Assembly: GCF_000378205.1 (NCBI RefSeq)
Contig: NZ_KB899423.1
Span: 1 to 64,000 of the forward strand
Length of the DNA: 64,000 nucleotides
Direction of reading: 5' to 3'
From: Sediminispirochaeta bajacaliforniensis DSM 16054
GTDB lineage: Bacteria; Spirochaetota; Spirochaetia; DSM-16054; Sediminispirochaetaceae
Shown here: piece after piece, positions 2,768 through 53,351 of the stretch
Layout: every line of letters begins with the position of its first letter
Numbering within the stretch: the first letter of the stretch is position 1
Notes under the pieces: generated by a model
The model's input: the letters and a program-made list of their open reading frames with translations, nothing else
What the model was told of the DNA's origin: nothing
The model's database searches: none
Program-made: the position numbers and the translations under genes

Positions 2768-4600
2768 CTAGGGGGAAACCTCACCGACGGTATCATCGCG
2801 AAAATGGATTACAACCTCTTCACGGCTTCTTTTATGCCGCACCTTCAAATAGAGGGTCCTCGAATCGCGGTCGTAATACCAGCCGCCGGCATCGTAATAT
2901 TGAAACTGTCTGGTACCGTTCCATCTGATACCATACAACTCGATATAAGCAAACGGAGGCACGTTCTTAATCACCATATGATGGGTGGAGCCCGTCGGGA
3001 AAGAAAAGCTGATGGTATAGGCGTCCTGTGACCGACTGGCCGAAATGCTTTGTGCAACGGTCCAGAGTGCGACATCGGAACCCAATTCCTTATAAAGAAA
3101 GGTATGCCTGGGATAATAGCGGTTCTCCGCAAGAAGCGAATAGACCATTTCGGGAAGCAAATAGCCCTCTTTCCGCTCTTTTTCGTTATTTCGTAAGGGA
3201 CTCAGTGTCGCAGGCAACACGCCGTTCTCATCCGAAAGGGAAAGGACCGAAACCACCATTGTTCGACCCAGCTCTTCGAAGAGCGCTCGATTTTCCCCCC
3301 TGCCGATCTCCTGTAGGTAGTAGCCCGCTTTCAATGTAGCCTTCACATCAACCTTGTCGTTATCGAAAAGAAAGAGACCGTCATCCGCACGCCCCAGCCG
3401 CGGCAGTAATAGAGAATCTATCAGCCCATAAAGCTCTTCGTATCCGGGAAACCGTTCCGGATAAAGATTGCCCACATCAACATAGACCTCCACCATACCC
3501 GCCAGCTGAAGCGCAGTCATCTTTTTCCCCTCGAAGGCATCTGTTTTAAAGCACTCGGAAACCGCCCGCAGCAGTGCTTTATCACCGGAAAAGAGTAGAT
3601 ACTCGGCAAGATGATCAACCTCGGAAAAGAGTGCCGGGTTGGAACTGCGTGCATAATTTCTTAATTTTGTATTGATAGTCGAGGCCTCTGCAGACCTCGC
3701 CTCATCCGTCATGACAAGGGATCCCACATAAGGGGCCGAAAGGTAGGTGACATTCTCTTTATGACGAGTGCTGATACCCTTTATCGCATTCAGATCAACA
3801 GTATCTCTGCGACGAAAGCCTTCGGCAACCATGCCAACCAAAGCAGACTCCTGAAACTGTCGACCGCCGTCAGGGCTGCTCCAGGTATCGCTTCCCGGAT
3901 TGTATCGTCCGCTCTTCCAGCCCACATAGGCCTTTTCAAGATAATCACGTAGGTTTTTTTCATAGTTGTCTCTGGAAACCGAAGGATTTCCCTGAAAAAA
4001 CCAATAACGAACTGGATTTTCTCCTGGATTTTGGAAAAAACTAAGACGGCTTCCCTCGCCCTCAAAGCTGATGGTACCATCCTCGGCAATATCACTTTGC
4101 TGCAAATTAATGAGCACCGAACCCTGCTCCCGATCAAGAAGCCTTGCGGGAAGAAAATCCAGCGAAGAAAGAGTCCAATCGCTTTCCGGGGTAATAAGAA
4201 CACGACTAACACCACTCTCTTTCGGGAAAAGGGTCTGAATCATAAGGAGCTGATCACCATTTTCCCGGAGAGATGAACTGATTTCCAGGGTAACTCCCTC
4301 TTTGTACTCAACACGAATTTTTTGTTGTTCACCAATAACGTCGGCAAGGGTGAGGGCTTTTGGTTCCGACGCATCACCGATGTAACCGAACACCTGGCTG
4401 TCGAGATCGATGGTGCTGCCGAAAAGTTTCAACGTGGCAGATACCCCTCCGCCACTTCTGGTGCCCGATACCGCGGCCTGAGATACCTGATAACTGAACC
4501 CCTGTCGGGCCCCGGAGGTTTCAAGATGAATAAAGGCTCCGGTGAGCAGAAGATAGATCACCGGTATAAGGTAGTAGTGAAATCCCAGCTTTGTCTTCAT
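2768..4600 (-). CDS. Exported protein of unknown function, spirochaete-type
   Basis: 610 aa. The first hydrophobic segment (YYLIPVIYLLLTGAFI, about residues 7-22) is a signal peptide or single membrane anchor; the remainder is soluble and probably periplasmic. The middle alternates short beta-rich stretches with helical ones (ADDGLFLFDNDKVDVKATLK, ENRALFEELGRT); the last 100 residues (FSFPTGSTHHMVIKNVPPFA, YYDAGGWYYDRDSRTLYLKV) look like a beta domain. I do not recognise the family. The central region could resemble an alpha-alpha barrel. The start at 4600 is preferred over a TTG six codons upstream because it gives a normal basic N-terminus. It is transcribed divergently from the TPR lipoprotein across 76 bp. 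Confidence 0.65.
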   Translation of the reverse strand: MKTKLGFHYYLIPVIYLLLTGAFIHLETSGARQGFSYQVSQAAVSGTRSGGGVSATLKLFGSTIDLDSQVFGYIGDASEPKALTLADVIGEQQKIRVEYKEGVTLEISSSLRENGDQLLMIQTLFPKESGVSRVLITPESDWTLSSLDFLPARLLDREQGSVLINLQQSDIAEDGTISFEGEGSRLSFFQNPGENPVRYWFFQGNPSVSRDNYEKNLRDYLEKAYVGWKSGRYNPGSDTWSSPDGGRQFQESALVGMVAEGFRRRDTVDLNAIKGISTRHKENVTYLSAPYVGSLVMTDEARSAEASTINTKLRNYARSSNPALFSEVDHLAEYLLFSGDKALLRAVSECFKTDAFEGKKMTALQLAGMVEVYVDVGNLYPERFPGYEELYGLIDSLLLPRLGRADDGLFLFDNDKVDVKATLKAGYYLQEIGRGENRALFEELGRTMVVSVLSLSDENGVLPATLSPLRNNEKERKEGYLLPEMVYSLLAENRYYPRHTFLYKELGSDVALWTVAQSISASRSQDAYTISFSFPTGSTHHMVIKNVPPFAYIELYGIRWNGTRQFQYYDAGGWYYDRDSRTLYLKVRHKRSREEVVIHFRDDTVGEVSP

Positions 4601-4639
4601 TTCAGATGATTGTATCAATGAGGCCCGCCCTGTTCAACC

Positions 4640-4679
4640 TTGTCTTAAACACCCCGCGGCGGGTATAGTACGAGGAATG
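4640..4679 (+). promoter_or_regulatory. Promoter placed for a leaderless transcript of the TPR lipoprotein gene
   Basis: TTGTCT at 4640-4645, an 18-bp spacer and TATAGT at 4664-4669 precede the ATG at 4677 by only 7 nt. Transcription would begin at or next to the A of the ATG. The GAGGA touching the ATG has no spacing and cannot serve as a normal Shine-Dalgarno. Confidence 0.55.
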
Positions 4680-6089
4680 AAACCGATAATCCGAATGATG
4701 GAGGCGGCCCTTGCCGCCATCGCGATGTTGCTCCTTTTTTCTCTCTTGATCACTGCTTGTGCAGGCACGAAAGAGGCGGAAAAAACGGTCCAACCTGAGG
4801 TGGAGATTCCTCCTTACGAAAGTATCAGCTCCCTCCTCGCAGCAGGAAAGCCCGAAGAGGCCTTGGAAGCCTTTGAAAAAGCCTATGCCGATGATCCCGA
4901 TTCATTTGAAACTGCGTTGCTCCGCTCAGGGCTTTTAGTAAGTATCGGTAAAACCGATGAGGCAAAAGAGGCCCTGAAGACGGCTCTCGAAAAAGAACCT
5001 GATAACCCCGATGCTCTATTCACCGGTGCCTTGATTGCCGGACTTGACGGTGAGCGAAGCCAGGAGAAAGCATTGCTGGAATCCGTTGTGGAAAAGGCGC
5101 CCGACCATGGCAGAGCCCTTGCCGCCCTGGGTGAGTTGTACATGGAGGATAAGGAATACGATAAGGCTGAAGACTCCTTTGAAAAAAGTATCGAAGCGGA
5201 ACCGGATAATTTCGTTGCACGGGCAGGCTACGGAAACCTGCTACTGAGGCAGAAAAAATATGAAGAGTCCGTCGAACAGCTCAACAAGGCGGTAGAGGAG
5301 TTTCCCGATTACCCCTTTTCCTATGTGGACAGAGGCAAGGCAAAGGCGGGCCTGGGAGATACACAGGATGCAGTCACCGATCTAAGCAAGGCGATAGAAC
5401 TCGATCCCGAACACTACTGGCATTATATCGATCGGGGTAAACTTTATTTGTATCAAGGCGACATAGAAAAGGCTGAAGCAGATTTCACCTCTGCAAAGAA
5501 GATCGATCCCGATTACTTTCTCTCCTACGTCTACCTCGCAGGGATCAACAGCGACAAGAAAAATTGGTCCGGAGCCCTTGCCGACTACAAGGCCACGATG
5601 GAACGGCGGCCCGATTACTACTACGCCTACGAACCGGCAGCCACGGCGGCTTTTCTTTCGGAGGATTATGCCTGGGCCGCAGAAATGTATCAGAAAGCCT
5701 ACGAAAACGAGCCTGATGAACACGGCTACGCCCTTATGCATGGAATCAGTTTGTTTGAGGCGGGAAAAGAGCAAGCAGCACAAGCATATTTTAGAGAAAA
5801 GATGGGAACGCTGCCCCGGGATACCTATTACTATGATATTGCACGGACTTTTGTCGAACGGGGATATGACGGCTATCTTGTTTCAAAGTTGAATCTGGAA
5901 AAGCAAATGCCCTTGAAAATCAGGGCCTATTTCTACCTTGGCCTCTTCTACCGTTGGGCCGGAAGCGATACCCTGGCAAACCGTTACCTCGGAGAGGTCA
6001 GGGACAATGCTCTCTTCGGAATGTTCGAAACCGAAATTGCCGAAAATCTGCTTGAAAAGGAAGGACCTTCTGAAGATGCAAAGAATTGA
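4677..6089 (+). CDS. TPR-repeat lipoprotein
   Basis: 470 aa. The N-terminus is a lipoprotein signal: basic residues, a hydrophobic run (ALAAIAMLLLFSLLITAC) and a LITAC lipobox with Cys at about residue 29, so the protein is probably acylated and held at a membrane facing the periplasm. The rest is built of about nine to ten tetratricopeptide repeats (A-L-x(8)-P-D-N patterns such as LEKEPDNPDALFTGALIAG, SIEAEPDNFVARAGYGNLLL and AIELDPEHYWHYIDRGKLYL). TPR arrays bind partner proteins; the partner here is unknown. Its last 14 bp overlap the start of the TraB-family gene, so the two are translationally coupled and probably act together. Confidence 0.85.
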   Translation: MKPIIRMMEAALAAIAMLLLFSLLITACAGTKEAEKTVQPEVEIPPYESISSLLAAGKPEEALEAFEKAYADDPDSFETALLRSGLLVSIGKTDEAKEALKTALEKEPDNPDALFTGALIAGLDGERSQEKALLESVVEKAPDHGRALAALGELYMEDKEYDKAEDSFEKSIEAEPDNFVARAGYGNLLLRQKKYEESVEQLNKAVEEFPDYPFSYVDRGKAKAGLGDTQDAVTDLSKAIELDPEHYWHYIDRGKLYLYQGDIEKAEADFTSAKKIDPDYFLSYVYLAGINSDKKNWSGALADYKATMERRPDYYYAYEPAATAAFLSEDYAWAAEMYQKAYENEPDEHGYALMHGISLFEAGKEQAAQAYFREKMGTLPRDTYYYDIARTFVERGYDGYLVSKLNLEKQMPLKIRAYFYLGLFYRWAGSDTLANRYLGEVRDNALFGMFETEIAENLLEKEGPSEDAKN

Positions 6090-34951: not shown

Positions 34952-35090
34952 AAAACCTCCTTGGTGTTGATACCGCTATTCTACTATAACGCACTTTCGA
35001 ATCGGTTTCAGGAACCCTTTGCGTTCTTTTTCGCTTAGCGCTACTATGTAAGCGTAAGTGATTTTCGAAATAAAGTCCAAGGAGAGAGTC

Positions 35091-36320
35091 ATGCAGGCAA
35101 TACGGATACGCGACGGTATTTATCGCATTAGTGCCAACATAGGAAATAAAGATCTCTTTGAAGGAATTTGGCCCCTTCCTAATGGAGTGAGCCTCAATTC
35201 CTATCTTGTAAAAGGAGAGAAGGTAGCGCTTATCGATCTTGTGAAGGATTGGGACGATGCTCCGGGACAAATTGCGTCTCAGCTTGCATCGGTAGGTGTC
35301 TCTTTTGATCAGATCGATTATTTGATTATCAACCATATGGAACCGGATCACACCGGGTGGTTGCGGGAGCTTCGTGAAAAAAACCCGAAGCTGCAGATTC
35401 TTGCCAGTAAGAAGTCAATTCCCCTGATAAAGAATTTCTACGGCATTGAAGAGGGTGTGAAGGCCGTAAGTTCAGGCGATAGCCTTGAACTTGGGAACGG
35501 TAAGACGCTGCTCTTCGAGGATACGCCAAATGTTCACTGGCCGGAAACGATGGTTACCTGGGAGCGTTCTTCAAAGGTACTTTTCAGCTGCGATGCGTTC
35601 GGTGCTTTCGGCGCCATGGGAAACAAGGCCTTTCATGATGAACTTTCCGCCAGTGAAAAGGATTTTTTTGATCGCGAAACCCTCCGCTACTATGCCAATA
35701 TCGTTTCCACCTTCAGCCCCTTTGTCGAACGAGCAATTAAAAAGCTTGAAAATCTGGAAATCGATGTAGTGGCGCCAAGCCATGGCCCTGTTTGGCGGGA
35801 AGAACCCGAAAAAATCATCGAACAGTACGCTCAGTATGCCTCCTGGATGAAAGGGCCTGCTCTTCCCGAGATTACCTTTGTCTGGAGCAGCATGTACGGC
35901 AATACCCAGAGAATGGTCGAACCGGTTTTGGAAGGGATACAATCTGAAGGGGTTCCTGTCCATGTGCACCGGGTGCCTCAGGAACATGTCTCTTTTGTTC
36001 TGGCGGATGCGTGGAGATCAACGGGTATTGTGCTTGGTATGCCTACCTATGAGTATAAGATGTTCCCGCCGATGGCGCATGTACTTGATATTCTTGATCG
36101 AAGTCATGTCCAGAATAGAACCGCTTTTAGATTCGGCTCGTACGGCTGGTCGGGGGGTGCACAGAAACAGCTTGAAGAGTTTGCTTCCTCGATGAAATGG
36201 AACTGCATGGAGGCTCTTGAGTTCGCAGGTGCACCTGATGCAGACGACCTGGCATTGGGGCGCAAGCGAGGGGCTGAACTTGCCCGTGCCGTAAAAAAAA
36301 TGTGTCAAGCCGACAAATAA
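35091..36320 (+). CDS. Flavodiiron protein (A-type flavoprotein)
   Basis: 409 aa with the two domains of the family. The metallo-beta-lactamase-like diiron domain has the ligands in IINHMEPDHTGW (H-x-E-x-D-H) and CDAFGAFGAMGNKAF, with the final His in VVAPSHGPVWR. The flavodoxin domain (residues about 255-405) has FVWSSMYGNTQRMVEPVLEG and FRFGSYGWSGGAQKQLEEF. Flavodiiron proteins reduce O2 to water or NO to N2O without making radicals, and they are common in anaerobes. AAGGAGAG lies upstream of the ATG at 35091. No rubredoxin gene is nearby; the 2Fe-2S ferredoxin 5 kb away is a possible donor only by inference. Confidence 0.93.
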   Translation: MQAIRIRDGIYRISANIGNKDLFEGIWPLPNGVSLNSYLVKGEKVALIDLVKDWDDAPGQIASQLASVGVSFDQIDYLIINHMEPDHTGWLRELREKNPKLQILASKKSIPLIKNFYGIEEGVKAVSSGDSLELGNGKTLLFEDTPNVHWPETMVTWERSSKVLFSCDAFGAFGAMGNKAFHDELSASEKDFFDRETLRYYANIVSTFSPFVERAIKKLENLEIDVVAPSHGPVWREEPEKIIEQYAQYASWMKGPALPEITFVWSSMYGNTQRMVEPVLEGIQSEGVPVHVHRVPQEHVSFVLADAWRSTGIVLGMPTYEYKMFPPMAHVLDILDRSHVQNRTAFRFGSYGWSGGAQKQLEEFASSMKWNCMEALEFAGAPDADDLALGRKRGAELARAVKKMCQADK

Positions 36321-46402: not shown

Positions 46403-47479
46403 ATGGACAAACAAGCAAGTATACGGAGAATTCAGCGTCTGAGCGACGCAAACGGCATCTCGGGATTCGAGGATGCGGTGGTAGAGCTTATTAGGCAAGA
46501 GGCAGAGGATCTTGGGAACTTCAGTGAAGACAGCCTCCGCAATCTTTATCTGGAACGCAGCGGCAACGGAAAGGACAGACCCGTTCTCCTTCTTGATGCT
46601 CATACCGATGAGGTAGGCTTTATGGTGAAGGCGATCAGGCCTGACGGGATGCTGGAGTTCATTACCATCGGAGGGTGGGTTCCTTTCAATATCCCTGCAC
46701 ATTTGGTCAGGGTACGTAACAGAGACGGTCTCTATATCCCCGGCGTGGTCGCAAGTAAGCCTCCCCATTTTCTCACCGAAGCGGAGCGCAAGGCTCCTCT
46801 GGAGGTTAAGGATCTGGTTATTGACGTTGGTGCAAGTTCGGCGGAAGAGATTGAGCATGAATATCTGATAGAGATAGCCGCTCCGGTGGTTCCTGATGCC
46901 CACTGCAGCTACGATGAGGTGCATGATATCCTCATGGGCAAGGCCTTCGACAACCGCCTCGGATGTGCGGCCGTTGTTTCCGCCATGGAAGAGCTTCGGG
47001 GGGATGAGCTGCCGCTTAATGTAGTAGGGGCCTTTGCTTCTCAGGAAGAGGTCGGGACCCGAGGGGCCGCCGTTACGGCACAGCGTGTTACTCCCGATCT
47101 TGCGATCGTTTTTGAGGGGTGTCCCGCCGATGATACGGTGGTTCCCGCTTATCAGGCACAGACCGTGCTGAAGCGCGGGCCGATGCTTCGTCACATTGAT
47201 GCCCGTATGATTACGAATCCCCGCTTTCAGCGCTACGCGCTTGATATAGCCAAGAGGGAGGCCATTCCCGTGCAACGCGCCGTTAGGACCGGTGGTGCAA
47301 CCAACGGTGCCCCTATTCATCTTTCCAATCAAGGAGTTCCCGCCATCGTTGTTGGTATTCCCGTTCGCTATGCACATACCCATTACGGGATATCCTCATA
47401 TAGCGACTTCGCCCACGGGGTTGAGCTTGCAGTGAAGATCATACGGAATATCACACACGATATTATTGCCGGTTTTTGA
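46403..47479 (+). CDS. M42-family aminopeptidase
   Basis: 358 aa. Dinuclear metal peptidase motifs are in order: LLDAHTDEVGFMVKAI, GKAFDNRLGCAAVVSAMEEL, FASQEEVGTRGAAVTAQRVT (catalytic Glu pair), VFEGCPADD and YAHTHYGISSYSDFAHGVEL. M42 proteins are tetrahedral dodecamers that trim N-terminal residues from peptides. It follows the creatininase gene at 6 bp and is nearly joined to the next gene, so it is part of the operon. It is consistent with breakdown of an imported peptide. Confidence 0.9.
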   Translation: MDKQASIRRIQRLSDANGISGFEDAVVELIRQEAEDLGNFSEDSLRNLYLERSGNGKDRPVLLLDAHTDEVGFMVKAIRPDGMLEFITIGGWVPFNIPAHLVRVRNRDGLYIPGVVASKPPHFLTEAERKAPLEVKDLVIDVGASSAEEIEHEYLIEIAAPVVPDAHCSYDEVHDILMGKAFDNRLGCAAVVSAMEELRGDELPLNVVGAFASQEEVGTRGAAVTAQRVTPDLAIVFEGCPADDTVVPAYQAQTVLKRGPMLRHIDARMITNPRFQRYALDIAKREAIPVQRAVRTGGATNGAPIHLSNQGVPAIVVGIPVRYAHTHYGISSYSDFAHGVELAVKIIRNITHDIIAGF

Positions 47480-47480
47480 C

Positions 47481-48530
47481 ATGGGTATTGGAAGGATGTT
47501 TCCACTGGAAGCGGTGGGCAACAAACGGCAGGAGTATCCTGCTTCCCTTGGTTCCGATGTGTGTTTTTGCATGTCCGGACGATGCGCAATCTATGCTTGT
47601 TTACTGGATCTTTTGCCTTCAGATAGCCGGCGGGTGGTCTACGCGCCGGCATATACCTGCGAAACGGTCCTTGCTAGCTACCTGAAGGCCGGCTATTCCT
47701 GCAGGTTTTACGATATTGATCCGGAAGGATTGCGACCCCGGTTCCGCGAAGAAGAACTTGATGAAATTTCGCTTCTTTCCCTGTGCGGATATTACGGTGT
47801 TTCCACCTATGATCGGGAATTCGTGAGGAGATGCGCCGAACGCGGCATTGTTATTATACACGACACGACACATACTCCTTTTCAGCCGGACCCTGCGGCG
47901 GATTACATTGCGGGCAGCATGCGAAAGTGGATGGGGATAGCCTGTGGAGGAATTGCCGCGAAACGAAAGGGACATTTTTCGATCTCCCCCCTTCCTGTAG
48001 ATCCAGAACATCTTGCCGGACGCTACGCTTCCCTTGAGTTAGCCGGAAAAGCACAAAAGGGTGATTTACATGCGTCCTCCGAGGCTTCATCCGTTTTCTG
48101 GGAGACGGAAATGGCTCTCAGAAAAAGTTTTGATGCCTATGGCAGCGATGAACAATCTCGACGAATTCTCGAATACTATCCCTATGACGATATGATTGCA
48201 CGAAGACGGGCAAACTACGGCCTTCTGCTGGGACTGCTCGGTCCTCCGACGGGCTGGGCGCCTGTTTTCCCACTCCTGCCTGAGAATGCGACACCAAGCC
48301 ATTTTTCACTTTATGCGGATGACCGGGAGGACCTGCGTTCCTTTCTTGCCCAGCGGGATGTCGCTACTACCGTCTACTGGCCCATTCCCCCGATGATTGG
48401 GGACATTTCTTCCTACCCCGGGGCAGAGTGGATCTACAATCATATCTGCTCGATCCAGATTGACCAGCGCTACGGCGCCGAGGATATACGACTGCTTGCT
48501 TCCTGTCTTAATGCGTACAGCGGGAGCTGA
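47481..48530 (+). CDS. PLP-dependent aminotransferase-fold protein, DegT/DnrJ-like
   Basis: 349 aa. The fold is a PLP enzyme by its pattern: a substrate-side start (FCMSGRCAIYACLLDLLPSD), VVYAPAYTCETVLASYLKAG, an Asp in VIIHDTTHTPFQPDPAADYI and the Schiff-base Lys in IAGSMRKWMGIACGGIAAKR. It is most like DegT/DnrJ/EryC1 aminotransferases, but its motifs depart from the sugar-aminotransferase norm. ATG at 47481 lies one base after the M42 stop. It is the last gene of the operon. Reaction unknown; a transamination or lyase step on a product of the two hydrolases is plausible. Confidence 0.65.
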   Translation: MGIGRMFPLEAVGNKRQEYPASLGSDVCFCMSGRCAIYACLLDLLPSDSRRVVYAPAYTCETVLASYLKAGYSCRFYDIDPEGLRPRFREEELDEISLLSLCGYYGVSTYDREFVRRCAERGIVIIHDTTHTPFQPDPAADYIAGSMRKWMGIACGGIAAKRKGHFSISPLPVDPEHLAGRYASLELAGKAQKGDLHASSEASSVFWETEMALRKSFDAYGSDEQSRRILEYYPYDDMIARRRANYGLLLGLLGPPTGWAPVFPLLPENATPSHFSLYADDREDLRSFLAQRDVATTVYWPIPPMIGDISSYPGAEWIYNHICSIQIDQRYGAEDIRLLASCLNAYSGS

Positions 48531-48533
48531 TCT

Positions 48534-50411
48534 CTATGCTTCGTGTCCCTCTTCCCGCACCTGAAACCGTGCGACCAGTTCTTCCAGTTGCTTGACACTA
48601 CCGGAGTTCTGGTCCCCTGCATTTGATACATTCTGGGCCGCCTGGGCAATTTCGAGAATCCCAAGGGCCATCTCTTCCATGCCTGCCGTCGACTCTGCAG
48701 AGATATTCTGGAGGGTTTCCAGACTGGATGCAATCGCGGCAACCTTCTGGTCCATTTCACCCGACGAATTTTGCACATCCTGGGTTATTTGGACCAGAGA
48801 ACCCAATGCCTCAACAATCTGTCCGCTACCGATGGAAAGCTCCTGGGTGGCATTTTGCATTTCGTTCATACTTCGGGAGACTTCCTTGATCATCTGGAGC
48901 ATCCTGTCGAACATTTCTCCGGTTCGCTCGGTCGATTTGTCCGTGACGGAGATGTTTTCGATAACCTCTTTCAAGCTTTTAGAGATCTCTTTGGCGGAAT
49001 TTGAGCTCGATTCGGCAAGGTTTCTGATTTCGTCGGCAACAACCCCAAAGCCCTTACCGGCCTCTCCAGCATGAGCCGCTTCAATTGCAGCGTTCATTGC
49101 AAGGAGATTGGTTTGGCTGGCAATAGAGTCGATCACCTCGATCATCTCCATCATGACATCAGCAGATTCGGCCACCTTTTTCATGACTTCCCGGGTGATT
49201 CCCATTTCGCTGCTGCCCTGTTCGGAGGTATGCTCAAGCTCTTCGGCAATTTTCAGTTTTTCGGCACTGGAATGGGCGATGGAGTTGATACTTGCGGACA
49301 TCTCTTCGATTGAAGCCGAAGATTCGGTAATTGCCGAGGCTTGACTCTGAATCTGTTCATTGACCCGCTGTATAAAGTCTCTTACCTCGTCGGCCGAGCT
49401 TTTTGAGGAATGGACCTCCTCATCCAGATGATGCATCTGGTTTTTCATCTGGTCGCTGTTTGCTCTGATTTCCTCCACGGCCGCCGCTGTTTCGGTGGAG
49501 CTGGATGCAAGGTCTTCACTGATACTTCGGGTATTCCTGGTTACCTTTCCGATATCGAGAATCATCCCGTGGAGTGAAGAGACAAATTTATTGAAGTAAT
49601 CCGAAAGTTGCCCGATTTCATCCCTTGAATCGACACTGCTGCTTACGGTGAGGTTCCCGGCACTGACCGCTTCGAAGTTCTGAATATACTCTTTCAACGG
49701 TCTGGTAATCATTTTGATGCTGAACCAGAGAAAGAGGCCCAGAAGGAACATAATCGAGACCGAGAGAAGCGTGATTTGTATCGCCGCCCTGGCCGTCGTG
49801 GCCTTTGCAGCTTCCAGACTGCTTATGATCTCAAAAGCCCCGTGGATTTCACCCACCTGCCATCCCTCTTTTATCCCACCGATGGGATCGGGGGTTCCGG
49901 CCGGTGAGCCGTGGCAGAGAAGGCACTCCTGGGTCAGCTTAATGGGACGAAAATAACGGATCTGGTTTTCCTCGTAGATCACTTTCTCTTCGAGGCCTTT
50001 TGCTTTCAGCTCTTCAAGAACCTTTGCCTCAAGTTCCGTCGGCTCGTTCTCCGGGTTACGGGGTGAAACCTTCGGGACACGAAACTGATAGTTGGCCTTT
50101 TCAGCATTTTCTTTTGCAATACTGATGGCGGTGATGATGGGAACGGCTTCGAGGAGTTTATCCCTGTCGCCCTCGGCGGCAAGATCATCAAAATTTCGAA
50201 TGACCCCCATATTGATCTTATGGGCCATATTTTCTCGTGCCGCTTCCGCAGTGTAAACTACCGCATGGCTTTTTTCCAGGATTGCCTTTTCCGCCTGGCT
50301 CCCGATTGCGTTGGTAAAAACCACAGAGAAAATAACAGAAAGAGTGACAATACCCAGCAGTGCAATGGTCAAAATCTTAGCCGCAATGGGAATGTCTTTA
50401 AACCGGGTCAT
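48534..50411 (-). CDS. Methyl-accepting chemotaxis protein with a c-type heme motif in its sensor domain
   Basis: 625 aa. TM1 (about residues 10-33), a periplasmic domain to about residue 225, TM2 ([20 protein letters not shown]), HAMP, and the cytoplasmic signalling domain with its conserved hairpin ([20 protein letters not shown]). The sensor is of the DUF3365/Tll0287-like type and contains CLLCH at residues 163-167, a c-type heme attachment motif (codons at 49911-49925). Such receptors sense redox or gases. ATG at 50411 has GGAGGAG six bases upstream. It is convergent with the PLP gene. No cytochrome c maturation gene is in the window. Confidence 0.88.
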
Positions 50412-50446
50412 GGAACTCCTCCGAACAGGGCTCATTTTTTCTTATT

Positions 50447-51913
50447 TTATATGTTTTCCAGCAATTTGATAAGAAAGCCCCAAAGCTTTTCCACCGAGGG
50501 AATATTGAGCCGTTCTTCCGGAGTATGAACCCCCGGCATTTCCGGCCCAAAGGATATCATTTCCATACCCTTCAGTTTATCGCCGATGACACCACATTCC
50601 AAGCCCGCATGGATGGCAGCATGGGAGGCTTCCTCACCGGTAAAATCACGATAGATTCGTTTGCATTCGGCAAGGAGTTTACTGTTCGGATTGGGCGTCC
50701 AGGCAGGATAGCGTGAATAGTGGCGCACCTGACCGCCTGCGACACATATTGCGGCATTCACTTTTGCCGCTATGTCGTCAAGGGCACTCATGATCGAGGA
50801 TCGCTGACTTGTCAGGACCTTCACCGTCGCGCTACAGCAGCCCTTTTGGGTTTCGATTGCTGCAAAGTTGGTACTCGTTTCAACCAGCCCCTCAATGCTC
50901 CGACTCATTGCCGCCACTCCGTGGGGCATGATACGCAGCATATAGCATATTCGGTCTGTAGACGAACGGTCGAACTGTTCGTCGGCTTCGGTATCCTGTT
51001 CAAAGATGAGGTTGAAGCCCGGTGCATTATCGCCCAATTCCGCTTTGATCTCCTTTCCGATTGTTTTCGCCAGCTCCTCTGCTTCGGCGACTTTCTCCTT
51101 TGAAAGGGTGAAACGGGCATGACATTCTCTGGGGATGGCGTTATGTTTTCCTCCTCCGTCGACGGAAACGAGGTTGAAATCTCCCAACTTCCGCAGTTCC
51201 CAGAGCAGTCTGCCGACAAGGCCGATGGCATTACCACGACCGAGATGGATTTCGCCTCCCGAATGTCCACCCTGGAGCCCTTCAATCGTCAACGTATAGC
51301 AGACCCGCCCCTGCGGTACAGCCTCGCTTGTAATCGGTAACATACCTTCGGTGTTGACACCTCCCGCACAGCCGATATAAAAAACCCCCGGTTCCTCCGA
51401 GTCGAGGTTGAGAAGGATTTTTCCGTCGATTATGGAGGGATCAAGACCCATTGCCCCAGTTAAGCCCGTTTCCTCGTCAACGGTAAAGAGTGCTTCAATA
51501 GGGCCGTGGCTGATTTCATCAGATGCAAGGACCGCCAGGGCCATGGCAACCGCAATGCCGTTGTCGGCTCCCAGGGTCGTTCCGTCGGCTTTGAGCCAGT
51601 CGCCGTCGACTACAAGTTTGATAGGATCAACGGTAAAATCATGCTTTGTCGTACGGTTTTTTTCGCATACCATATCGAGATGGCCCTGGAGGACGACTCC
51701 CGGATGGGCCTCCTTACCGGCAGAAGCACCCTTCTTTACCGCAATATTGCCCGCCGCATCGACTTTCCAGGCCATATGATGCTCTTCTGCGAATTGCCGG
51801 ACATAATCACGAACCGCTGCCTCGTTGCACGAACAGCGGGGAATCTTGCTGATGGCCTGAAAATAGTGCCAGACCGAAACGGGTTTTCTTCCTTCCAAAG
51901 GGTTATTATTCAT
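50447..51913 (-). CDS. pepD: Aminoacyl-histidine dipeptidase (PepD)
   Basis: 488 aa, the usual length of PepD. M20 metal motifs: VLQGHLDMVCEKNRTTKHDF, GTTLGADNGIAVAMALAVLA, LFTVDEETGLTGAMGLDPSI, and LQGGHSGGEIHLGRGNAIGL. It splits dipeptides such as beta-Ala-His and Xaa-His in the cytoplasm. AAGGAGCC precedes the ATG. It is followed on the same strand by the MCP gene at 35 bp, so they could share a transcript, though functions are unrelated. It is divergent from tetR across 228 bp. Confidence 0.93.
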   Translation of the reverse strand: MNNNPLEGRKPVSVWHYFQAISKIPRCSCNEAAVRDYVRQFAEEHHMAWKVDAAGNIAVKKGASAGKEAHPGVVLQGHLDMVCEKNRTTKHDFTVDPIKLVVDGDWLKADGTTLGADNGIAVAMALAVLASDEISHGPIEALFTVDEETGLTGAMGLDPSIIDGKILLNLDSEEPGVFYIGCAGGVNTEGMLPITSEAVPQGRVCYTLTIEGLQGGHSGGEIHLGRGNAIGLVGRLLWELRKLGDFNLVSVDGGGKHNAIPRECHARFTLSKEKVAEAEELAKTIGKEIKAELGDNAPGFNLIFEQDTEADEQFDRSSTDRICYMLRIMPHGVAAMSRSIEGLVETSTNFAAIETQKGCCSATVKVLTSQRSSIMSALDDIAAKVNAAICVAGGQVRHYSRYPAWTPNPNSKLLAECKRIYRDFTGEEASHAAIHAGLECGVIGDKLKGMEMISFGPEMPGVHTPEERLNIPSVEKLWGFLIKLLENI

Positions 51914-52141: not shown

Positions 52142-52669
52142 ATGACGGATAAGCAGAAACGAAGAAAAGAAGAGATCATCGAAACCGCATTTCGAGTGTG
52201 GTCGGAGAGCTTGTTTAAAAAGACCAGCCTCTCAGCCGTTGCGGCGCGTATGGGAATAAGTAAAACAGCATTGTACCGCTACTTTTCGGGAAAAGAGGCA
52301 TTACTTCTGGCTATGGAAGAATTTTTTCTTCGTTTGTACAACCGCTTATGCGATGAGGTGGTCAGGCATCGAGGCGAAAGGAGTGTTGCTGAGGCGCTGG
52401 AGGCGTATAACCGTATTTTTGTAGGCTTTTTTGCAAGGAACCCTCACTACCTCCGGTTTGCTCAGATTCGATTTATCCGAAAGCCTGAAGTCGGCGATTC
52501 CTTTCTTGCCATGACCTTTCGGAGAAATATGGATCTTTTTCCTGCTGAGCCTCTTGCAAGGGAGTTCGGCTGGAGGATGGCGCAGATACCGGTGATTGTT
52601 CGCTATATGCTGTCGGTTTCGAATTTTCTTCTTACCGCCGAATATTTCGGAAACGGAGAAGATGGTTGA
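52142..52669 (+). CDS. TetR-family regulator (first of two adjoining TetR modules)
   Basis: 175 aa, a little short for TetR (usually 190-210). The N-terminal HTH (IIETAFRVWSESLFKKTSLS, VAARMGISKTALYRYFSGKE) and a helical ligand domain are present. The protein stops at GNGEDG. Deleting one G of the GG at 52664-52665 would extend it as GNGEDVERLLEVNRRLIISG into the second TetR frame, giving one 402-aa protein. As written the second module starts at an ATG 8 nt inside this gene. The operator palindrome is right upstream, so it probably represses the efflux operon. No Shine-Dalgarno is seen. Confidence 0.85.
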   Translation: MTDKQKRRKEEIIETAFRVWSESLFKKTSLSAVAARMGISKTALYRYFSGKEALLLAMEEFFLRLYNRLCDEVVRHRGERSVAEALEAYNRIFVGFFARNPHYLRFAQIRFIRKPEVGDSFLAMTFRRNMDLFPAEPLAREFGWRMAQIPVIVRYMLSVSNFLLTAEYFGNGEDG

Positions 52670-53351
52670 GAGACTTCTGGAGGTAAACCGTCGCTTGATT
52701 ATCTCGGGAATCGGCTTGAACGATGAACGGCGAGTACCCGATTTTAAGGTAATCGAGGAGCAATGTACCCTTTCCGAAAGGGATTTTCCCGAAACCGACC
52801 GAGTGATTTGTGCCGTAAGCGAGGTGGTCGCCGAGAATGGCCTTTGGAATACCACGGTGGAAAAGATCGCACATCGGCTGGGGATGAGTAAAAGTAGTCT
52901 CTACTTCTACTTCGAGAACCGTGACGAAATGCTGTGGAGGTTGATTGATCGGGAACGGCAGGCTTTTGGTGCATTGGTCATTAGGGAGATTGAACCAATA
53001 GGGCCCTTTGCCGATCAGCTTTACGCCTATTTTGTATTGTATGCACGCTATTTGTGGGGACGACCGGAGTTCTTGGCAACGATGAACTGGTATCGCTTCC
53101 AGGATATCTCTTTCCATCCACCCGAGGATCCGCTCTCTGGCGTGCTCAGATATTATCGATTTATCGAAGAGGCAGTTGAAGCGGGCGTTGTGTCGGAGAA
53201 GGTCCCTCTGGTTAGTTTCTTTCGGCTTTTGAATTTTTTGCTGATGCAGGAACTTTCCGACCATTTTCGAAGTGGTGATGACATAAAGCAGCTTTTTCCG
53301 GTCCTGCGGACGCTGCACCAACTTTTGTTGTATGGAGTACAAGGAGCGTAA
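52662..53351 (+). CDS. Second TetR-family module, overlapping the first in another frame
   Basis: 229 aa. The first 40 residues (VERLLEVNRRLIISGIGLND) look like the tail of a TetR ligand domain rather than a normal N-terminus. A second complete HTH follows (VICAVSEVVAENGLWNTTVE, KIAHRLGMSKSSLYFYFENR), then another helical domain. The ATG overlaps the first stop (ATGGTTGA) and has no well-spaced Shine-Dalgarno. Either two coupled proteins or a frameshifted two-module regulator. It ends three bases before the tolC-like gene. Confidence 0.75.
   Translation: MVERLLEVNRRLIISGIGLNDERRVPDFKVIEEQCTLSERDFPETDRVICAVSEVVAENGLWNTTVEKIAHRLGMSKSSLYFYFENRDEMLWRLIDRERQAFGALVIREIEPIGPFADQLYAYFVLYARYLWGRPEFLATMNWYRFQDISFHPPEDPLSGVLRYYRFIEEAVEAGVVSEKVPLVSFFRLLNFLLMQELSDHFRSGDDIKQLFPVLRTLHQLLLYGVQGA

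Follow-up and report, generated by a model that had tools for sequence, protein, structure and literature searches.

The first 64,000 nucleotides of contig NZ_KB899423.1 of Sediminispirochaeta bajacaliforniensis DSM 16054 (the whole stretch analysed, from here on the window) contain a gene for a methyl-accepting chemotaxis protein (MCP) with a Tll0287-like sensor domain and, within this domain, the motif CLLCH. Our reading, which we hold at a probability of roughly two in three, is that this chemoreceptor carries one covalent periplasmic heme c, attached by the bacterium's own ResB-CcsA pair, that the heme is scavenged and that the receptor responds to nitric oxide (NO) or redox state. It is a further member of the already described sCache_heme / DUF3365 / Tll0287-like family.

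Sensor domain and heme motif

A preliminary description of the window had placed CLLCH in a chemoreceptor, which was exact to the base, the motif reading C163-L-L-C166-H167 on the minus strand (Table 1). It had also proposed a c-type heme site in a DUF3365/Tll0287 fold, a claim that the domain match, the motif alignment and the structural model given here all favour. The sensor matches PF11845 (Tll0287-like) in Pfam with 108.5 bits at a cut-off of 24.1 (E 5.1e-31), and HAMP and MCPsignal are found on the same chain. It sits between two hydrophobic segments (residues ~9-32 and ~209-236), and its predicted location is extracytoplasmic. The 625 amino acids include no cysteine other than C163 and C166, so that an axial cysteine as in Tll0287 could be ruled out. 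As start codon the ATG at 50411 was chosen for its ribosome-binding site; the open frame extends to 50435. Among the 56 open reading frames (ORFs) of 100 aa or more chosen in the window, the receptor alone bears CXXCH, the bare DNA pattern for this motif occurring four times in the window.

In profile searches of the PDB the receptor motif aligned with the CXXCH of Tll0287 (5b82), a heme protein of solved structure, and because CLLCH thereby occupies the heme position of the family a chance CXXCH was ruled out. An AlphaFold2 model of sensor residues 31-203 (pLDDT 91.2) was compared with solved structures, and the predicted fold agrees with 5b82 at Z 14.9 with a root-mean-square deviation of 2.9 over 147 residues, while the entries after 5b82 among the matches listed reach Z 7.7 and below, many of them being Cache sensors. 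The top Foldseek match of the model was also 5b82, with no other below E 0.001. Geobacter sensors were absent among the best 50 matches of each fold search, which proves nothing.

The sensor domain is under strong purifying selection, with 20 synonymous and 0 nonsynonymous differences from a genus-mate (G370) in residues 31-203, while residues 204-625 of the same receptor show 54 synonymous and 16 nonsynonymous differences. In an alignment of 51 rows (A2) CXXCH is present in 51/51, which is no independent test as the search behind the alignment partly used this motif, and Met62 is a methionine in 50 of the rows. The 30 receptor loci that were examined likewise all have a CXXCH ORF, a figure to be read with the fact that the script sought that motif and that PF11845 matches exceed 30. 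On viral contigs 18 stretches fit a pattern but none is a relative. A tree of the window receptor and 50 of 80 named related loci, made with a quick method, groups the receptor with three Spirochaetota rows (SH-aLRT 98); 19 of the 20 Spirochaetota rows come together with weak support (83), next to a group of mainly sulfate reducers, and no transfer is claimed.

The ResB-CcsA pair and its linkage to Tll0287-like receptors

The genome (4.57 Mb in 75 contigs) encodes one PF01578 protein, a CcsA of 262 aa (102 bits), and adjoining it a ResB-like protein (PF05140, 72.5 bits). The preliminary description had stated that heme attachment needs the Ccm machinery, which it did not see, and had named a genome free of cytochrome c maturation genes as what would speak against a heme. 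Maturation genes were found, but as the System II pair ResB-CcsA and not as System I Ccm, which with System II present is not needed. Alignment showed the WWD motif and four conserved histidines in the pair, whose columns were assigned by eye to P-His1, P-His2, TM-His1 and TM-His2; the roles of the motif and histidines in System II are described in PMC6299221. The ratio of nonsynonymous to synonymous substitution rates (dN/dS) is 0.32 and 0.17 for the two proteins. A gene for a NusG_II protein also adjoins the pair. On the same strand after ResB-CcsA follow a response regulator and then a response regulator with a SpoIIE phosphatase domain (C2 ~102.5-106.1 kb; L002 / L039), and because of these two the pair sits in a signalling gene cluster.

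Direct linkage between the machine and a Tll0287 protein could be seen in three Spirochaetota genomes that belong to three different families. In G015 and G130 ResB-CcsA directly precedes the gene of a Tll0287 MCP and in G212 it directly follows that of a Tll0287 hybrid histidine kinase, always on the same strand and with gaps or overlaps of <100 bases, and the Tll0287 partners carry CXXCH. Three such adjacencies compare with about 0.05 expected in a rough hand estimate. In the whole set of 392 Spirochaetota genomes PF01578 is present in 81 of the 83 genomes with PF11845 versus 58 of the 309 without it; the two that have PF11845 but not PF01578, G202 and G208, have a completeness of 81% and 77%. 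Within the bacterium's own class the figure is 15/15.

The locus of G212 (L038 4391-8329) encodes a hybrid histidine kinase with receiver domains followed by ResB and CcsA, the same pairing with another type of output.

Heme supply and other possible clients

Several observations weigh against the proposed reading, among them those on the supply of heme. No match to ALAD (PF00490) and no candidate for it was found in the genome or in G370, and ferrochelatase was found in none of the 16 genomes tested, the own genome included. To our knowledge ALAD is required by all known tetrapyrrole pathways. The source of the heme is therefore what we infer, as are heme loading, the ligand and the direction of the response. 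With regard to the machine, the ccs genes and the receptor are on different contigs, CcsA scores 180.2 with the NCBIfam CcsB model, just under its cut-off of 187.6, and the putative assignment to System II was made from ResB and CcsA. Nor is the linkage a general one: of the 80 named relatives only L045, apparently the contig of G015, has both genes within 6 kb, and L062 has a CcsA-like gene alone. That PF11845 and PF01578 occur together is in part due to phylogeny, and the latter family, inspected at the loci shown, also covers CcmC/CcmF/HemX-like proteins. Finally, and against a nearly dedicated machine, 39 genomes of the phylum have PF01578 but neither ALAD nor PF00034, and 21 of these (e.g. 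G391, G224, G261) lack PF11845; PF01578 must therefore do something else there.

From the genes present the bacterium seems unable to make heme, and because heme-making genes were not found the heme would probably be scavenged. ALAD was also not found in G015 and G130, and of the 15 genomes of the class with the receptor domain it was found only in G212, PF00034 being found only in G245. Spirochaetota are one of the phyla in which heme auxotrophy is reported to be common (PMC11139205), and Salinispira, a fermentative relative, is described as being without cytochromes (PMC4511686). S. smaragdinae, formerly in Spirochaeta and now placed in Sediminispirochaeta, which shares 99% 16S identity with S. 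bajacaliforniensis (PMC4511686), is given as obligately anaerobic, motile and able to reduce thiosulfate and sulfur (PMC3035371).

To find other proteins that might need ResB-CcsA the genome was analysed for CXXCH. As a DNA pattern the motif occurs at 350 places compared with 199 in a reversed control (~1.8x commoner) but almost never falls in the reading frame of a gene. The scan for any CXXCH covered 2.13 of 4.57 Mb (~47%). A first set of 100 of the 350 places (C1-C4, and C5 to 123 kb) gave 75 stretches with 102 matches and three chosen CXXCH ORFs, for none of which a membrane segment is predicted. When overlapped frames were kept these stretches held 15 CXXCH ORFs. One of them, of 96 aa, was labelled NikR-like by eye, and three overlapped frames that contain a hydrophobic run were taken as spurious as they are covered by longer ORFs. 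A further 40 stretches of C5-C9 revealed one CXXCH ORF of 77 aa without a membrane segment, and no other exported CXXCH protein, i.e. one with a membrane or signal segment, was found in the scanned ~47%. The more restricted CXXCHG was followed through all its 33 places in the genome, one being the receptor itself, nine lying in the 75 stretches and 23 being inspected separately. The latter comprise DnaJ (by eye), four frames under longer ORFs (one with a masked run) and 18 places without an in-frame ORF of at least 50 aa. Only DnaJ and the receptor were judged to carry CXXCHG in frame in a real gene, and among all 33 places there is no other exported protein with it. Cytochromes of PF00034 and PF13442 were absent from 8/8 genomes tested, the own genome included.

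A more far-reaching proposal, which we regard as tentative and somewhat short of an even chance, is that a lineage without detectable heme synthesis or ordinary cytochromes c retains ResB-CcsA mainly so that one chemoreceptor can be supplied with scavenged heme, and that receptor and machine share one operon in some relatives. Such a dedicated arrangement was not described in the titles and abstract openings of the papers listed in literature searches, which covered few subscription journals and are weak evidence. That the pair instead serves further c-type proteins (e.g. NrfA or an unusual multiheme protein), with the receptor as one client of several, is a serious possibility though below even: the ~53% of the genome outside the CXXCH scan and the families other than PF00034 and PF13442 leave room for such clients and the 21 genomes without PF11845 mean that other uses of PF01578 exist, while the searches for exported CXXCHG and CXXCH proteins and for the two cytochrome families, each within the scope given above, speak against it.

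Ligand and signal

Two sCache_heme relatives have been tested in a February 2026 preprint (PMC12889525), and a stable O2 complex is reported for neither of them. The stand-alone member showed Cys/His ligation and redox-like behaviour, while the HAMP-bearing member without an axial cysteine bound NO with a slow off-rate (PMC12889525). The layout of the receptor studied here, with transmembrane helices, HAMP and no third cysteine, matches that of the NO-binding member. In the Geobacter MCP sensors the sixth heme ligand is given as Met or water (PMC8396549), and Met62 is in our analysis a fair candidate for the distal ligand. The only relative listed in the PDB profile searches was 5b82, so that Met62 is without an alignment to Met60 of GSU0935. 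By analogy with these relatives, NO or redox state appears likelier than O2 as the signal.

The same protein with the same heme may also be a redox taxis receptor of the GSU0935/DcrA kind, in which the oxidation state of the iron follows the environmental potential, oxidation releases the distal Met and binding of NO is incidental. Similar MCPs of Geobacter have been proposed to act in this way, and DcrA is described as sensing redox potential and oxygen (PMC8396549); the near-invariant Met62 would suit it, as would the thiosulfate and sulfur reduction of the obligate anaerobe S. smaragdinae. With the HAMP-bearing member of the preprint acting as an NO sensor, and Met62 not alignable with Met60 of GSU0935, we consider it possible but clearly the minority view.

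According to the reading preferred here, one c-type heme would be bound covalently to C163 and C166 with H167 as proximal ligand, most likely attached by the own-genome System II pair. As an axial cysteine is lacking, a weak ligand (the conserved Met62) or water would occupy the distal site, and binding of NO or a change in the oxidation state of the heme may then alter its coordination. The sensor helices and the second transmembrane helix would shift as a result, the movement passing through HAMP to the MCP tip and on to the CheA kinase, whose output would change swimming in nitrosative or oxidising gradients.

A receptor without heme, in which CXXCH is a relic, a metal site or a disulfide and small molecules are sensed as by ordinary Cache domains, would agree with the missing ALAD, ferrochelatase and ordinary cytochrome c families and with the relative described without cytochromes (PMC4511686), but is improbable given a sensor free of nonsynonymous change against 20 synonymous ones, a retained and constrained ResB-CcsA and the direct linkage of the pair to such receptors in three genomes, two of which (G015 and G130) lack ALAD.

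Neighbourhood of the receptor gene

The features of the receptor gene, its upstream neighbour and the ccs genes are collected in Table 1. The heme site had been described as being next to a flavodiiron protein gene, which does not agree with the map: the ODP/flavodiiron-like gene is situated at 35058-36320, 12.2 kb off, with several genes in between. Directly upstream of the receptor in L042 (Spirochaetia) an M20 dipeptidase-like ORF (4315-5778, by eye) is found, as at 50447-51913 in the window. Further on, at 52142-53351, two TetR-like ORFs overlap in different frames where L042 has one ORF of 421 aa with a similar start; the pair is possibly a broken or two-gene version. A 354-aa ORF at 47466-48530 faces the receptor gene and has no Pfam match at E 0.001.

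Table 1. Position, strand and basis of assignment of the receptor features in the window and of the ccs genes on contig C2
Feature	Position	Strand	Basis
Chemoreceptor gene (MCP, 625 aa)	48534..50411	-	ORF, Pfam and start choice
GGAGGAG ribosome-binding site	50416..50422	-	assigned by eye
First transmembrane helix, residues ~9-32	50316..50387	-	hydropathy
Periplasmic Tll0287-like / sCache_heme sensor domain, residues ~33-205 (Pfam match 39-196)	49797..50315	-	Pfam, profile alignment, model, fold match
Met62, candidate distal heme ligand	50226..50228	-	Met in 50/51 alignment rows; analogy with GSU0935 Met60
CLLCH, putative heme c attachment motif (C163, C166, H167)	49911..49925	-	alignment with CXXCH of 5b82
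Second transmembrane helix, residues ~209-236	49704..49787	-	hydropathy
HAMP domain, residues 232-281	49569..49718	-	Pfam
MCP signalling domain, residues 388-541	48789..49250	-	Pfam
M20 peptidase (dipeptidase-like) gene, directly upstream of receptor	50447..51913	-	neighbouring gene
CcsA gene	C2:104273-105061	-	PF01578
ResB ORF	C2:105058-105876	-	PF05140

Comparison with known systems and significance

Among the closest known systems are the signalling-fused sCache_heme proteins (PMC12889525), with which the receptor shares a periplasmic Cache domain bounded by transmembrane helices and bearing CXXCH, a HAMP domain, an output domain and the lack of an axial cysteine; the member tested there is from Pseudomonas azotoformans, while the host here is an anaerobic spirochaete in which neither ALAD nor ferrochelatase was detected. 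Tll0287 of Thermosynechococcus shares the fold and CXXCH but is a stand-alone, single-domain protein with His/Cys ligation (PMC12889525), for which the receptor here has no third cysteine. DcrA of Desulfovibrio vulgaris, a chemoreceptor with a periplasmic c-type heme, is likened by description and not by sequence (PMC8396549). GSU0582 and GSU0935 of Geobacter sulfurreducens are likewise MCPs with one periplasmic heme c, HAMP and an MCP signalling domain (PMC8396549), the heme being predicted in the present case. Their sequences are too distant to have been picked up in the PDB profile searches. Geobacter is rich in cytochromes, whereas the genome studied here is without the two cytochrome families searched. 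In comparison with System II CcsBA (PMC6299221) the ResB(CcsB)-like protein and CcsA are alike in the WWD motif and the conserved histidines but are two short separate proteins. System II is known to serve cytochromes, whereas here a chemoreceptor appears to be served.

With this receptor, a sensor family described only recently is found to reach into spirochaetes that are strict anaerobes and live by fermentation. The receptor also raises the question of where the heme of a sensor comes from in an apparent heme auxotroph, and whether the swimming response is lost without it. Should ResB-CcsA have a single client, the bacterium would offer a minimal natural setting for studying System II heme attachment. 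If the pair is indeed kept chiefly for this receptor, cytochrome c maturation would here serve sensing and not electron transport, and sensing of NO or redox state would be possible only where the cell finds heme.
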